Shown piece after piece: positions 34,167-59,054 of a DNA stretch of 64,000 nt. Each line of letters begins with the position of its first letter. Positions within the stretch are counted from its first letter, which is position 1. Source of the DNA: Streptomyces sp. NBC_00490 (GTDB lineage Bacteria > Actinomycetota > Actinomycetes > Streptomycetales > Streptomycetaceae); NCBI RefSeq assembly GCF_036013645.1, contig NZ_CP107869.1:2914001-2978000 (forward strand), in the 5' to 3' direction. The position numbers and the translations under genes are program-made. The notes beneath the pieces are model-generated. The model ran no database searches. It was not told the DNA's origin and worked only from the letters and a program-made list of their open reading frames with translations.

Positions 34167-36157
34167 CCACCCCCTTTCCCTTTACGGCCCTCGTCGGACA
34201 GGACGATCTGCGGCTCGCGCTGCTGCTGAACGCCGTGTCGCCGGCGGTCGGCGGTGTGCTGGTGCGTGGTGAGAAGGGCACGGCCAAGTCCACGGCCGTA
34301 CGGGCGCTTTCGGCGTTGCTGCCGGAGGTGCCGGTCGTCGCCGGGTGCCGTTTCTCCTGCGACCCGGCCAAGCCGGACCCGGCGTGCCCGGACGGGCCGC
34401 ACGAGGCCGGTAACGGCGTCGAGCGCCCCGCCCGCATGGTCGAACTCCCGGTCGGTGCCTCCGAGGACCGGCTCGTCGGATCGCTCGACATCGAGCGGGC
34501 GCTCGCCGAGGGCGTGAAGTCCTTCGAGCCGGGCCTCCTCGCGGACGCGCACCGCGGCATCCTTTACGTCGACGAGGTCAACCTGCTCCACGACCACTTG
34601 GTCGACCTGCTGCTGGACGCGGCGGCGATGGGCGCGTCGTACGTCGAACGCGAGGGCGTCTCCGTACGGCACGCCTCGAAGTTCCTGCTCGTCGGCACCA
34701 TGAACCCCGAAGAGGGCGAGCTGCGACCGCAGTTGCTCGACCGGTTCGGGCTGACCGTCGAGGTCGCGGCCTCGCGGGAGCCGGACCAGCGGGTGGAGGT
34801 CGTACGGCGGCGGCTGGCGTACGACGACGATCCGGGCGGGTTCACGGCGCGTTGGGCGGACGAGGAAGCTGCTGTACGGCAACGGATCGTCGGCGCGCGG
34901 GAGTTGTTGCCGTCGGTGCGGCTGGGCGACGGTGCGCTGCGGCAGATCGCGGCGACCTGCGCGGCGTTCGAGGTGGACGGCATGCGGGCCGACATCGTGA
35001 TGGCCCGGACGGCCACCGCGCTGGCGGCCTGGGCGGGGCGGACCGAGGTGCTCGCGGAGGACGTGCGGCAGGCCGCGCTGCTCGCGCTGCCGCATCGGCG
35101 CCGCCGCAACCCCTTTGACGCGCCGGGCCTTGACGAGGACAAGCTCGACGAGACGCTGGAGGAGTTCTCCGGTGATGGCGAGGGCGACGAGGATCCCGAT
35201 CCGGACGGGCCCGGTGGGGGTGGCGGTCAGCCGCCCTCCGAGGGGCCGCAGGACGACGGTTCCTCCGGCGCTCAGCCCGAGGCCGGTGACGGCGGTGAGC
35301 CGCAGGCCGGTGGTGCCGGTGCGGGTGAGCAGTCCGCCGTACGGGCTGCCGAGCCCTTTCGTACCAAGGTGCTCAGCGTGCCGGGGCTCGGGGACGGGGT
35401 CGCCGGGCGGCGTTCGCGGGCGCGGACCGAGCACGGCCGGACGACCGGTGCGCGACGGCCGCGGGGGGCGCTGACCAAGCTGCACCTGGCGGCGACCATG
35501 CAGGCTGCCGCCCCGCATCAACGGGCGCGCGGGCGGTCCGGGCCCGGCCTCGTGGTGCGCCGGGACGATCTGCGGCAGGCGACGCGGGAGGGGCGCGAGG
35601 GAAACCTCGTGCTGTTCGTCGTGGACGCCTCCGGTTCGATGGCGGCGCGGCAGCGGATGAGCGCGGTGAAGGGTGCCGTGTTGTCACTGCTGCTGGACGC
35701 GTACCAGCGGCGGGACAAGGTGGGGCTGGTGACGTTCCGGGGTTCGGCGGCGGATGTGGCGTTGCCGCCGACGTCGTCCGTGGACGCGGCCGCGGCGCGG
35801 CTGGAGACGTTGCCCACCGGTGGGCGGACGCCGCTTGCCGCCGGGCTGCTGAAGGCCCATGACGTGCTGCGGGTCGAGCGGCTGCGGGATCCCGCGCGGC
35901 GGGCGCTCGTCGTGGTCGTGACCGACGGTCGGGCCACCGGCGGGCCCGAGCCCGTCGCGCTGGCCTCGCGGGCGGCCCGGCTGTTCGCCGCCGAGGGGGT
36001 CGCCTCCGTGGTCGTCGACTGTGAGTCGGGGCCGGTGCGGCTGGGGCTGGCGGGGCAGCTCGCCGGTGAACTGGGCGGTACCGCGGTCACATTGGACGAG
36101 CTGCGGGCGGACTCCATCGCCGGGCTCGTGAAGGACGTACAGAGGAGGGCCGCGTAA
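34163..36157 (+). CDS. fused ChlI/ChlD-type AAA+/VWA subunit of the metal chelatase
   Basis: 664 aa. The N-terminal AAA+ domain carries Walker A GEKGTAKST (residues 36-44), Walker B ILYVDEVNLL and the chelatase-type TMNPEEGELRPQLLDRFG. A long acidic, Pro/Gly/Ser-rich linker (about residues 335-400) leads to a VWA domain with a MIDAS motif VDASGSMA (D488, S490, S492). ChlI and ChlD are normally separate; here one polypeptide probably replaces the CobS/CobT pair to energise CobN. GTG start overlaps the cobN stop; TAA/ATG overlap with cobO. Confidence 0.9.
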   Translation: MTTPFPFTALVGQDDLRLALLLNAVSPAVGGVLVRGEKGTAKSTAVRALSALLPEVPVVAGCRFSCDPAKPDPACPDGPHEAGNGVERPARMVELPVGASEDRLVGSLDIERALAEGVKSFEPGLLADAHRGILYVDEVNLLHDHLVDLLLDAAAMGASYVEREGVSVRHASKFLLVGTMNPEEGELRPQLLDRFGLTVEVAASREPDQRVEVVRRRLAYDDDPGGFTARWADEEAAVRQRIVGARELLPSVRLGDGALRQIAATCAAFEVDGMRADIVMARTATALAAWAGRTEVLAEDVRQAALLALPHRRRRNPFDAPGLDEDKLDETLEEFSGDGEGDEDPDPDGPGGGGGQPPSEGPQDDGSSGAQPEAGDGGEPQAGGAGAGEQSAVRAAEPFRTKVLSVPGLGDGVAGRRSRARTEHGRTTGARRPRGALTKLHLAATMQAAAPHQRARGRSGPGLVVRRDDLRQATREGREGNLVLFVVDASGSMAARQRMSAVKGAVLSLLLDAYQRRDKVGLVTFRGSAADVALPPTSSVDAAAARLETLPTGGRTPLAAGLLKAHDVLRVERLRDPARRALVVVVTDGRATGGPEPVALASRAARLFAAEGVASVVVDCESGPVRLGLAGQLAGELGGTAVTLDELRADSIAGLVKDVQRRAA

Positions 36158-36756
36158 TGCCTCAGGGGCAGCCGAGTGTGGTGCCGGACGACGGTCTGAC
36201 CACGCGTCAGCGTCGTAACCGGCCTTTGGTGGTCGTGCACACGGGGATCGGCAAGGGGAAGTCGACCGCCGCCTTCGGGCTCGCGCTGCGGGCCTGGAAC
36301 CAGGGGTGGCCCATCGGGGTGTTCCAGTTCGTCAAGTCGGCGAAGTGGAAGGTCGGCGAGGAGAACGCGCTGCGGGTTCTCGGCGCCAGTGGCGAGGGTG
36401 GCTCCGTCGACTGGCACAAGATGGGTGAGGGCTGGTCCTGGGTCCAGCGCGACCAGCAGATGGACAACGAGGAGAAGGCCCGGGAGGGCTGGGAGCAGGT
36501 CAAGCGGGACCTGGCCGCCGAGACGTACCAGCTGTACGTGCTCGACGAGTTCGCCTATCCCATGCACTGGGGGTGGGTGGACACCGATGAGGTGATCTCC
36601 GTGCTGCGGGACCGGCCGGGCACCCAGCACGTCGTCATCACCGGGCGGAACGCTCCCGAGAAGCTGGTCGACTTCGCCGATCTCGTGACCGACATGTCCA
36701 AGGTCAAGCACCCCATGGACGCCGGGCAGAAGGGCCAGCGGGGTATCGAGTGGTGA
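36157..36756 (+). CDS. cobO: CobO corrinoid adenosyltransferase
   Basis: 199 aa. P-loop GIGKGKST at residues 30-37 in the BtuR/CobO context (VVVHTGIGKGKSTAAFGLALRAWNQGW), then VLDEFAYPMHWGWVD and HVVITGRNAPEKLVDFADLVTDM. CobO transfers the 5'-deoxyadenosyl group of ATP to cob(I)yrinic acid a,c-diamide. Start codon ATG overlaps the previous stop by one base. Confidence 0.95.
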   Translation: MPQGQPSVVPDDGLTTRQRRNRPLVVVHTGIGKGKSTAAFGLALRAWNQGWPIGVFQFVKSAKWKVGEENALRVLGASGEGGSVDWHKMGEGWSWVQRDQQMDNEEKAREGWEQVKRDLAAETYQLYVLDEFAYPMHWGWVDTDEVISVLRDRPGTQHVVITGRNAPEKLVDFADLVTDMSKVKHPMDAGQKGQRGIEW

Positions 36757-38210
36757 TGTCCTCGTCCGTTTCCGTTCCTCGGCTGGTCATCGCCGCGCCC
36801 TCGTCGGGCAGCGGCAAGACCACCGTTGCCACGGGGTTGATGGCCGCGTTCGCCGCGCGGGGGCTTGCCGTGTCTCCGCACAAGGTGGGTCCCGACTACA
36901 TCGACCCCGGGTATCACGCGCTCGCCACCGGGCGGGTGGGGCGGAATCTCGACGCGTATCTGTGCGGGGCCGAGTTGGTCGGGCCGCTGTTCGCGCACGG
37001 GGCGCGCGGGTGTGACATCGCCGTCGTCGAGGGCGTGATGGGGCTGTACGACGGGGCCGCGGGGGAAGGTGAGCTGGCGTCCACGGCGCATGTGGCGAAG
37101 CTGCTGCGGGCGCCGGTGGTACTGGTCGTGGACGCGTCGTCGCAGTCGCGGTCGGTGGCGGCGCTGGTGCACGGGTTCGCCTCCTGGGATCCCGAGGTGC
37201 GGGTCGGGGGCGTGATCCTCAACAAGGTCGCTTCGGATCGGCACGAGGAGTTGTTGCGGGAGGCGTTGGACTCGGCCGGGGTGCCGGTGCTCGGGGTGTT
37301 GCGGCGGGTGGCTCAGGTGGATACGCCGTCGCGGCATCTGGGGTTGGTGCCGGTCGCCGAGCGGCGGGCGGAGGCGGTGGACGCGGTGGCGGCGATGGCC
37401 GCACAGGTTTCCGCCGGGTGCGATCTCGAGGCGCTGGTGGGGTTGGCTCGGGGTGCGGGCGTGTTGTCCTGTGCGGCTTGGGATGCGGCTGAGGTCCTGG
37501 CTTCTTCGCCCCCGCCGCCCCTTCCCGTCCCGACCCTGGGGGCTGCGCCCCCAGACCCCCGCTTTCGGCCCGAAGGGCCTCGTCCTCAAGCGCCGGACGG
37601 GCTGAAGGCACCGGTGGTCGCCGTCGCCGGTGGGTCCGCGTTCACCTTTTCCTACGCCGAGCATGCCGAGTTGCTCGGCGCTGCCGGGGCCGTCGTCGTG
37701 CCGTTCGATCCGCTCCGGGACGAGCAACTGCCTGACGGTACCCGTGGGTTGGTCATCGGGGGTGGGTTTCCCGAGGTGTATGCGTCTGAGTTGTCGGCCA
37801 ACGAGCCGCTGCGTAAAGCCATCGGGGAGCTCGCTCTCAGCGGTGCTCCCGTGGCCGCCGAGTGTGCCGGGCTGCTCTATCTGTGCCGGGAGCTCGACGG
37901 GCTGCCGATGTGCGGGGTGCTCGACGCCTCCGCACGGATGAGCGAGCGGCTGACGCTCGGGTACCGGGATGCCGTGGCCGTGAGCGACAGTGCGCTCGCC
38001 GTCGCGGGGACCCGGATGCGCGGGCACGAGTTTCACCGGACCGTCGTCGAGCCGGGCTCGGGGGCGGCTCCCGCCTGGGGTGTGCGCGCCCCTCAACGGC
38101 GGGTCGAAGGTTTCGTACAACAAGGGGTGCACGCGAGTTATGTGCACACGCACTGGGCCTCGCAGCCCGGTGTCGCCCGTCGGTTCGTGGAGAGGTGCCG
38201 GACGTCATGA
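36756..38210 (+). CDS. cobB: CobB/CbiA cobyrinate a,c-diamide synthase with repeat-derived linker
   Basis: 484 aa. The N-terminal synthetase domain begins RLVIAAPSSGSGKTTVATGLMAAF (P-loop K21). The C-terminal glutamine amidotransferase domain has C370 in AAECAGLLYLCREL and ends HTHWASQPGVARRF. The enzyme amidates the a and c side chains of (hydrogeno)byrinic acid with glutamine and ATP. Between the domains, residues about 248-286 (SSPPPPLPVPTLGAAPPDP, then RFRPEGPRPQAPDGLK) are encoded by a dispersed streptomycete repeat also present at 58821-58960. GTG 36753 is an alternative start; it overlaps the cobO stop. Confidence 0.92.
   Translation: MSSSVSVPRLVIAAPSSGSGKTTVATGLMAAFAARGLAVSPHKVGPDYIDPGYHALATGRVGRNLDAYLCGAELVGPLFAHGARGCDIAVVEGVMGLYDGAAGEGELASTAHVAKLLRAPVVLVVDASSQSRSVAALVHGFASWDPEVRVGGVILNKVASDRHEELLREALDSAGVPVLGVLRRVAQVDTPSRHLGLVPVAERRAEAVDAVAAMAAQVSAGCDLEALVGLARGAGVLSCAAWDAAEVLASSPPPPLPVPTLGAAPPDPRFRPEGPRPQAPDGLKAPVVAVAGGSAFTFSYAEHAELLGAAGAVVVPFDPLRDEQLPDGTRGLVIGGGFPEVYASELSANEPLRKAIGELALSGAPVAAECAGLLYLCRELDGLPMCGVLDASARMSERLTLGYRDAVAVSDSALAVAGTRMRGHEFHRTVVEPGSGAAPAWGVRAPQRRVEGFVQQGVHASYVHTHWASQPGVARRFVERCRTS
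37501..37610 (+). repeat. dispersed intergenic repeat inserted in frame in cobB
   Basis: Blocks GCCCCCGCCGCCCC and CCCGTCCC, then CTGGGGGCTGCGCCCCCAG with AGACCCCCG, and GGCCTCGTCCTCAA plus CGCCGGACGGGCTGAAGGCA, match the noncoding repeat at 58821-58960 in the same order and orientation. The copy here lacks the internal segment of about 34 bp present at 58.8 kb and stays open in the cobB frame. Confidence 0.8.
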
Positions 38211-38938
38211 GCAGCAAGCTGGTCGGGGTCGGGGTAGGGCCCGGTGATCCGGAGCTGGTGACCGTCAAGGGCGTCAACGCTCTGCGGGCCGCCGATGTCG
38301 TCGTCGTGCCGGTGATGGACACCGGGGAGCGTGGGCGGGCCGAGGCCACGGTCCTGCACTACGTGGGTCAGGAGAAGGTCGTACGGGTCGTGTTCGCGCT
38401 CAACGAGCGGACCGACCGGGCCCGGCGCGAGACCGCCTGGGACGCCGCCGGGGATCGGGTCGCCCAGCTGCTCGCCGAGCACTCCTGTGTCGCCTTCGCC
38501 ACCATCGGCGATCCGAACGTGTACTCCACCTTCACCTATCTCGCGCAGACCATCGCCGAGCTCGTGCCGGGGACCGTCGTGGAGACCGTGCCGGGCATCA
38601 CCGCCATGCAGGATCTCGCCGCCCGTTCCGGTGCCGTGCTCACCGAGGGGACCGAGCCGCTGACGCTCGTGCCGGTGACCGCCGGGGCCGCGGCACTCAA
38701 GGAGGCCCTCGCCGGGCCCGGGACCGTGGTGGCGTACAAGTTCGGGCGGCAGGCCCAGGAGGTCGCCGAGGCGCTGCGGGAGACCGGGCGGATCGACGAC
38801 GCCGTATGGGGGTCCGCGCTCGGGCTGCCGGAGGAGTCGGTGCGGCCCGCCTCCGAGCTCGGCGAGGCCGCGCTGCCCTATCTCTCCACTCTCATCGCGC
38901 CCGCCCCGCGCGGCGGCGGTCGGGGCGGCAAGCTGTGA
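38207..38938 (+). CDS. cobI: CobI precorrin-2 C20-methyltransferase
   Basis: 243 aa, tetrapyrrole-methylase fold. LVGVGVGPGDPELVTVKGVNAL is the SAM-binding opening; FATIGDPNVYSTFTYL and VETVPGITAMQDLAARSG are CobI/CbiL signatures. It methylates C20 of precorrin-2 (or its cobalt form) to precorrin-3A. ATG overlaps the cobB stop (ATGA), with GAGAGG upstream. The converging ZIP transporter gene begins its stop 26 bp beyond. Confidence 0.93.
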   Translation: MSSKLVGVGVGPGDPELVTVKGVNALRAADVVVVPVMDTGERGRAEATVLHYVGQEKVVRVVFALNERTDRARRETAWDAAGDRVAQLLAEHSCVAFATIGDPNVYSTFTYLAQTIAELVPGTVVETVPGITAMQDLAARSGAVLTEGTEPLTLVPVTAGAAALKEALAGPGTVVAYKFGRQAQEVAEALRETGRIDDAVWGSALGLPEESVRPASELGEAALPYLSTLIAPAPRGGGRGGKL

Positions 38939-57693: not shown

Positions 57694-58794
57694 GTGACGC
57701 ACCCCTTCCTGGACCTGCCCCCGCTCAGCGCGGCGCACTTCGCGACGATCGAGGACCGCGTGGCGCGGCTGCTGAACACCTCGCAGGATGTCGTGATCAT
57801 GCAGGGGGAGGCGTTGCTGCCGCTGGAGGGGGCGATCCGGGCGACCGCGGGGCCCGGCACCGTGGCGCTGAACGTGATCACCGGGCCGTACGGGCAGACC
57901 TTCGGCGACTGGCTGCGGGACTGCGGGGCCACCGTGATCGATCTGGCGGTGCCGTTCCACACGGCGGTGACCGCGGAGCAGATCCGGCAGGCCTTCGCCG
58001 AGCATCCGTCGATCGACTTCGTCTCACTGGTGCACGCGGAGGCGGCGACGGGCAACACCAACCCGGTCGCGGAGATCGGGGAGGTGGTGCGGTCGCACGG
58101 AGCACTGTTCTACCTGGACGCCGTCGCCTCGATCGGGGCGGAACCCGTGCTGCCGGACGCGTGGGGTGTCGACCTGTGTGTGATCGGGGCGCAGAAGGCG
58201 ATGGGCGGGCCGGCGGGTGTCTCGGCGGTTTCGGTGAGCTCGCGGGCGTGGGCTCGGATGGCGGCGAATCCGCAGGCGCCTCGGCGGTCGTACCTCTCCC
58301 TGCTGGACTGGAAGGAGCGGTGGGTCGACGGCGGGCGCAAGGCGCTGCTGCACGCGCCGGCGCAGCTGGAGATGCTGGCGCTGGAGGCCTGCGTCGAGCG
58401 GATCGAGGCGGTCGGGCTCGATGCGGTGATGGCTCGCCACGCGTCCGCGGCCGCGGCGGTGCGGGCGGGGGTCGTGGCGCTGGGGGGCGGGCTCGAGCCG
58501 TATGTGTACGAGGCGCGGGACGCGGCGCCGGTGGCCACGACGCTGCGGGCGCCGGCGGGGGTGGTGGCGTCGGAGCTGGTGGCTCGGGCGCTGGGGTCGG
58601 ATCCGGCGCTGCCGGTGGCTGCGGGTGGGGGTGCGTTGGCCAAGGAGATGATCCGGGTCAACCACTACGGGGCGGACGCGACGCCGGGGGCTGTGCGGGC
58701 GAGTCTCGCGGCGCTGGGGGCCGCGTTGGGTGAGCGGGGGCTGGATGTGGATGTGGAGGGGGCGCTGCGGGCTGTGGAGGACAGCTGGCGGTAG
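57694..58794 (+). CDS. PLP-dependent aminotransferase (alanine-glyoxylate/serine-pyruvate type)
   Basis: 366 aa from GTG 57694 with GAAGAGAG upstream; GTG 57673 would add 7 residues. Class V aminotransferase pattern: FATIEDRVARLLNTSQDVVIMQGEALLPLEGAIRA, VSLVHAEAATGNTNPVAEIG, and the PLP lysine in VIGAQKAMGGPAGVSAVSVS. Serine-glyoxylate, serine-pyruvate or alanine-glyoxylate aminotransferase activity is the likely range. It diverges from the amino-acid ABC operon (190 bp shared upstream region), so the two may be co-regulated. Confidence 0.87.
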   Translation: MTHPFLDLPPLSAAHFATIEDRVARLLNTSQDVVIMQGEALLPLEGAIRATAGPGTVALNVITGPYGQTFGDWLRDCGATVIDLAVPFHTAVTAEQIRQAFAEHPSIDFVSLVHAEAATGNTNPVAEIGEVVRSHGALFYLDAVASIGAEPVLPDAWGVDLCVIGAQKAMGGPAGVSAVSVSSRAWARMAANPQAPRRSYLSLLDWKERWVDGGRKALLHAPAQLEMLALEACVERIEAVGLDAVMARHASAAAAVRAGVVALGGGLEPYVYEARDAAPVATTLRAPAGVVASELVARALGSDPALPVAAGGGALAKEMIRVNHYGADATPGAVRASLAALGAALGERGLDVDVEGALRAVEDSWR

Positions 58795-58820
58795 GTGCGT
58801 GGTTCGGGCGGGGGCCGGTT

Positions 58821-58960
58821 TTCTCGCCCCCGCCGCCCCTACCCGTCCCATCCTCCAGGGGCGCCGCCCCTTCGACCCCGATCCCTGGGGGCTCCGCCCC
58901 CAGACCCCCGTCGGCCCTTTGAGGGGCCTCGTCCTCAAACGCCGGACGGGCTGGAAGGCA
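58821..58960. repeat. dispersed intergenic repeat (second copy of the cobB insert)
   Basis: Ordered blocks TCGCCCCCGCCGCCCCT, CCCGTCCC, then CTGGGGGCTCCGCCCCCAG with AGACCCCCG, and GGGGCCTCGTCCTCAAACGC with CGGACGGGCTG followed by AAGGCA. CTGGGGGCTCCGCCCCCAG can form a hairpin. It lies 26 bp after the aminotransferase stop. Common in streptomycete intergenic regions from memory. Confidence 0.8.
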
Positions 58961-59054
58961 AGCTCTCGGTCTCGGGTGCCGGGCGGGTCCGATGGTGCGG
59001 GCGGGGCTGAAATGTACGTTTCGGCGTGGTGTGGTGCCGTGCCATGCTCGCCGC

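Follow-up and report, generated by a model that had tools for sequence, protein, structure and literature searches.

How does a short repeat that usually lies between genes come to encode part of an enzyme? The question is posed by cobB in a window of 64,000 nucleotides from Streptomyces sp. NBC_00490, where the first-pass annotation noticed that the segment joining the two domains of CobB shares ordered blocks with a noncoding repeat near 58.8 kb. Our analysis indicates that a repeat of ~102 bp very probably inserted into this linker in a clade ancestor and was kept there as tolerated coding sequence.

An In-Frame Repeat Copy at the CobB Domain Boundary

The features of the window to which we refer are listed below.

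36157–36756, + strand: upstream neighbour, ATP:corrinoid adenosyltransferase (CobO type; Pfam PF02572), overlapping the cobB start
36750–38210, + strand: cobB, cobyrinate a,c-diamide synthase, GTG start, 486 aa (from the ORF, Pfam, and the names of homologues)
37505–37606, + strand: full-length short-form repeat copy, in frame, codons 252–286 (35 aa) (from the panel score)
37536–37554, + strand: first hairpin of the repeat, CTGGGGGCTGCGCCCCCAG, retained in the coding copy (from sequence and predicted fold)
37581–37599, + strand: second hairpin of the cobB copy, with a CC-TCAAnCGCC-GG core whose outer pairs covary (from complementarity counts)
38207–38938, + strand: downstream neighbour, tetrapyrrole methylase (Pfam PF00590), overlapping the cobB end
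58823–58955, + strand: long-form intergenic copy, 28 bp past a stop codon at 58792–58794 (from alignment and classification)

Pfam places the CbiA domain at residues 12–197 and the GATase_3 domain at residues 290–472 of CobB, and the repeat-coded insert sits between the two. The 486-codon reading frame is unbroken across 37505–37606, in agreement with the earlier claim of no stop and no frameshift, and this open frame suggests that the copy is translated. The stretch from SSPPPP to APDGLK is in frame as described, with a length of 35 residues rather than about 38.

Local alignment of 37501–37620 with 58801–58980 gives a score of 132, compared to a mean of 23 and a maximum of 53 for 2000 dinucleotide-shuffle pairs. 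The shared blocks are therefore real, and the similarity, once aligned formally as the first-pass annotation had advised, lies far above chance. Both stretches are about 76–77% G+C (76.5% in the cobB copy), and two GC-rich stretches might look alike by chance; the shuffle test refutes this explanation, as do the absence of control matches and the covariation described below, and we consider it exceedingly improbable. Against a panel of 170 other repeat copies, the cobB linker copy scores 174, where the null (243 tiles from the N-terminal half of cobB) reaches a maximum of 44. Its nearest relative in the same genome is 94.3% identical over 105 columns.

In the AlphaFold model of CobB the insert is coil, with pLDDT below 50 at residues 260–270 and 272–283; residues 1–3, 99–109, and 189–201, outside the insert, are likewise modeled with low confidence. 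A search of the PDB by sequence returned no match, nor did Rfam over 37300–37800 of the window. We infer that the encoded peptide is disordered and is tolerated rather than selected. Such tolerance would be explained by the element itself, which is GC-rich and free of stops in four of six frames, and by a Pro/Ala/Gly/Arg-rich peptide in a little constrained linker.

A Dispersed, Mostly Noncoding Repeat Family

The view of the insert as one copy of a dispersed, mostly noncoding repeat at a domain boundary is borne out by the Pfam boundaries and by copies throughout the genome. The genome search that had been recommended yielded at least 61 matches to a 151-bp segment, the query's own place included, from the 40 of 156 first-look candidates that were scored. 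A 28-base core, allowing ≤3 mismatches, occurs at 57 sites, and the same pattern read backwards at 0. Full-length copies start about TTCGCCCCCGCC and finish about CGGACGGGCTGAA. The 42 that we classified divide into 21 short copies, among them the one in cobB, and 21 long ones, the latter carrying one more hairpin; none of the 41 besides cobB scored as clearly coding in that classification. The proposal that the coding copy had been trimmed by ~34 bp to keep frame does not hold, since the short form is an ordinary subfamily (20 of the 41 other full-length copies). We accordingly reject an origin of the cobB insert from a trimmed long copy; its length difference from the 58.8-kb copy is a subfamily difference.

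By a home-made heuristic that scores gene context, 37 copies have a clear upstream neighbour. Twenty-four of these lie in sense orientation 13–103 bases past its stop codon, and the other 13 lie behind a gene on the opposite strand. In the tested part of the coding stretch that precedes the 58.8-kb repeat (58201–58788), nothing matched Pfam at 1e-5. The short consensus is open in four of six frames, and among 63 segments from the window genome four frames are open in 47–56.

At E 0.001, 151 of the 199 genomes surveyed from the genus contain the repeat; the survey scored four candidates per genome and so does not give copy numbers. In Streptomyces sp. AP-93 (G199), the exact 13-base core occurs 320 times (control matches, 0), and many of 100 core places listed are facing pairs. 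The base pairs flanking the core covary in this genome, being complementary in 95 of 97 copies with four pair combinations; at the cobB loci, the outer pairs are complementary in 22 of 24 cores. Position and covariation together would fit a stem-loop role on the 3' side of genes. As a separate observation, the 3' hairpin unit forms a tandem array beside an intergenic copy near 4615 kb of the window genome (L147).

One intergenic copy lies whole at a gene end in 2 of 13 genomes (the window's and G049), which indicates that the family turns over; in the 11 other relatives, ~160 bases after the same gene contain no full copy, with a reversed fragment in L333 and a hairpin-like remnant in L335. 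The site orthologous to 58.8 kb holds a long copy in G049 and in G007, a short copy in G067, and a fragment in G040, and it lacks a copy in G009, G013, and G014. The suggested mobility of the family is thus supported as turnover, both by the copy found whole in so few genomes and by the three relatives missing the 58.8-kb copy. No target duplication was evident on viewing two intergenic sites with and without a copy. The window genome contains two Y1_Tnp genes (C1:560071 and C1:4799493), and Y1-type (REP-type) transposases are possible mobilisers of the repeat.

Recurrence in CobB Linkers across Streptomyces

We examined 81 cobB genes, comprising the window and 80 loci. Close relatives are over-represented, because the 80 loci were the best of 571 in the search. 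The compared linker stretch spans 45 to 130 residues. As the first-pass annotation had anticipated, most homologues lack the stretch: 52 of the 81 linkers score ≤60 against the panel of other copies. The remaining 29 score >60, 16 inside the window's clade and 13 outside it, the latter with scores of 63–126 that are mostly weaker than those inside. Three linkers slightly over the null (L042, L066, and L106; 51–53) were left out of this count. Removing coding carboxylase copies from the panel, which reduced it to 167, left 29 carriers with scores unchanged. All 24 core-motif matches in the 80 cobB loci (348,863 bases) fall within the linker.

Inserts of the SPPPP type occur only within a supported clade of 19 rows (96/97), in which we read 15 rows with the insert, 2 with an eroded form, and 2 without it by eye. 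Across the cobB tree there are 11 changes of state at a threshold of 60, and 12, 12, and 8 at thresholds of 45, 70, and 100. The tree counts changes without direction, and losses may figure among the 11. A single carrier clade is rejected (p_AU 7e-48). Insert subfamily, frame, and orientation vary between clades: L069 has a minus copy alone, L059 and L073 have plus-and-minus pairs, and L070 has a plus copy where the linker of its sister L089 is empty. These differences argue against one early insertion in the common ancestor of the genus that was later lost many times. That history would account for the linker position shared by the inserts of all carrier clades, and the change count is undirected; even so, we regard it as quite improbable.

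The preferred reading, then, is that a ~102-bp stem-loop repeat usually located on the 3' side of genes would have entered the CobB linker in sense orientation in the ancestor of one Streptomyces clade, to be retained afterwards as coding sequence. In other clades, this linker would have taken up related elements, which lie in different frames and some of which are inverted.

In two genomes, G007 (L288) and G027 (L289), cobB is split into two frames at a point within the repeat: the frame of the N-domain continues to a stop, and the C-domain lies in a different one. The break reflects either genuine instability or an error in sequencing through a GC hairpin; in the former case, the insert may carry a cost.

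Three further observations concern these loci. The linkers of L087, L053, and L068 hold another palindrome-like sequence (peptide like PVVPT...CPQP). In the L048 linker and in L289, the 3' hairpin unit of the repeat has multiplied in tandem. L098, whose record bears the title Microtetraspora glauca, falls among the Streptomyces sequences of the cobB tree and is mislabelled or transferred.

Synonymous Sites in the Insert

Among the window, L033, L034, L259, and L260, five sequences chosen for sharing the insert peptide, the insert differs at 0 of 23–24 fourfold sites, compared to 24–32% in the remainder of the sequence (pairwise Fisher p of 2.5e-4 to 2.1e-3, the pairs not being independent). 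In nine sequences, third positions vary in 6 of 8 codons before the element, 1–2 of 8 within its first 24 codons, and 7 of 8 after it, and the stretch of low divergence has its edges at the element ends. A 72-nt variant (≤3 mismatches) occurs in 5 of 199 genomes, with one copy each and every time in cobB; the 72 nt are identical in G000, G067, and G063, which differ by 11–13% elsewhere. This freeze in part of the clade exceeds what mere tolerance predicts and counts against our preferred reading. Gene conversion from an identical copy in the same genome was rejected as a source of the identity, there being none in the five genomes with the variant.

The freeze could reflect constraint or recent spread, and both are possible. 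Under constraint, the RNA or DNA stem-loops of the coding copy would act in the cobB message, for example in ribosome pausing at the domain boundary or in mRNA processing, with the nucleotides themselves selected. The silent fourfold sites, the fall in third-position variation inside the element, the occurrence of the 72-nt variant in cobB only, and the stem complementarity retained in coding cores are consistent with such a role. On the other side, the five frozen sequences were selected by peptide, and the contrast is less clear with the nearest relatives of the window (L044, p 0.17; L031, p 0.014). The inserts of L035, L038, and L047 are overall roughly as divergent from that of the window as the rest, or more so, although third positions in L038 are still more alike in the insert (82 vs 70%). 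The element is eroded or lost in some clade members, and the copies between SoxD and SoxA described below are not generally frozen. Predicted folding of the short form also does not exceed that of shuffled sequences (z of −0.65 for the consensus and −0.74 for the whole cobB copy), whereas the long 58.8-kb copy folds better (z −2.40). We hold this role to be a tentative possibility, short of an even chance.

Under recent spread, the frozen insert would be young, carried between species by recombination or placed at the site by repeated insertion of one variant. The identity of the 72 nt in genomes that otherwise differ so widely suggests such a history, as does the intergenic copy of G067 at the 58.8-kb orthologous site, which holds part of the cobB variant. 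Two observations speak against it: the low-divergence stretch matches the element ends, unlike ordinary recombination tracts, and the variant was not found outside cobB in the 199 genomes, which are a sample of the genus. We judge recent spread somewhat unlikely.

Repeats in Other Proteins

We searched for proteins resembling the linkers. The window linker matched 175 proteins at E 0.01 or better, and 119 of the 120 listed matches carried CobB Pfam domains, the other being a PucR regulator. With the L073 linker and E up to 10, the 26 matches (12 at E 0.01 or better) comprised 10 CobB proteins, 13 acyl-CoA carboxylase alpha subunits, and SMC-like, ABC, and MFS proteins. Eleven of the 13 carboxylase alpha subunits were inspected, and each contains two repeat pieces; the window genome's own carboxylase has no repeat piece. 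The L087 linker found CobB alone (2 matches of 552 candidates, one weak). In AP-93, five of a sample of 96 repeat sites lie within cobB, carboxylase, and HrpB helicase; these were found by a relaxed coding filter with six ORFs read, so that further coding copies may be missed. Repeat-bearing open frames thus include cobB, the carboxylase alpha subunit, HrpB, ABC, SMC-like, PucR, and SoxD-SoxA, as open frames only. This list is a minimum, since only proteins comparable in length and with short words in common could be detected.

In the last of these cases (L152, C1 about 9416.9 kb of the window genome), SoxD and SoxA are separated by an antisense copy but by no stop. Of 13 relatives searched, 6 likewise keep this stretch open as a single frame. 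A repeat-coded peptide could be read in five of the six, three of which have the strict core pattern, and the remnant in L372 is doubtful. Five relatives have a second sox locus, where a stop codon ends SoxD ahead of SoxA. SoxA may instead use an internal start within the joined frame. The SoxD-SoxA copies mostly diverge like the rest or faster.

Relation to Known Elements

Rickettsia palindromic elements (RPEs; Ogata et al. 2000, 2002, as related in PMC10969869 and PMC3733652) are described as lying in frame in Rickettsia genes (PMC10969869). In-frame palindromic repeats are known chiefly from Rickettsia, and protein change driven by MITEs and similar to that by RPEs is called conceivable in other prokaryotes (PMC10969869). 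Cod-2, a small in-gene repeat family, has been likened to RPEs (PMC2267715). The Streptomyces repeat resembles RPEs, as they are described, in being a stem-loop repeat dispersed between genes and in frame within unrelated proteins. It differs in its host, a high-GC free-living actinomycete, in its usual site on the 3' side of genes, and in having repeatedly entered the same linker. By analogy, it appears to work like RPEs in an unrelated high-GC genus.

Like REP elements (GTAG/CGTC-tagged; PMC3733652), the copies are short, high-copy, mostly intergenic stem-loops, often paired. Unlike REP elements as described there, they are longer (about 102 or 130 bp), with several hairpins and a conserved loop on a covarying stem. 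A constant tetranucleotide at the stem base was not found, the dinucleotides flanking the core in 97 copies being CG, CT, GT, and GC, and the word Streptomyces has no occurrence in the text of that paper. The repeat shares with the MITEs that fuse ORFs in frame (PMC10969869) the ability of short dispersed elements to extend or alter proteins. No clear MITE-like terminal inverted repeats or target duplications were seen at the ends and sites viewed; the ends TTCGCCCCCG and CGGGCTGAAA have no clear inverted match by eye. The 3' ends read from the copy listing (GGGCTGAAA or similar) lack the hairpin followed by a T run of an intrinsic terminator. Among the open-literature matches listed, with subscription papers mostly outside, there was no account of the repeat or of in-frame copies.

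Beyond the first-pass annotation, the new elements are the recurrence in cobB, the other host proteins, and the synonymous freeze in part of the clade. As related repeats entered the same spot and other proteins repeatedly, noncoding DNA appears to have been turned into protein linkers again and again. More speculatively, and with a probability that we put below one half, the repeat could have a dual use in part of the clade, coding a linker while its RNA or DNA structure forbids synonymous change, and the superfamily could be a genus-wide supplier of linkers that inserts at domain boundaries and joins subunits (SoxD-SoxA). A high-GC genus with very many genomes, a repeatedly invaded linker, and empty sites makes the conversion of noncoding sequence into protein measurable. 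The Streptomyces repeat lets one ask which reading frames are retained and whether a role at the RNA level persists in a coding copy, and these questions are testable in culturable strains.
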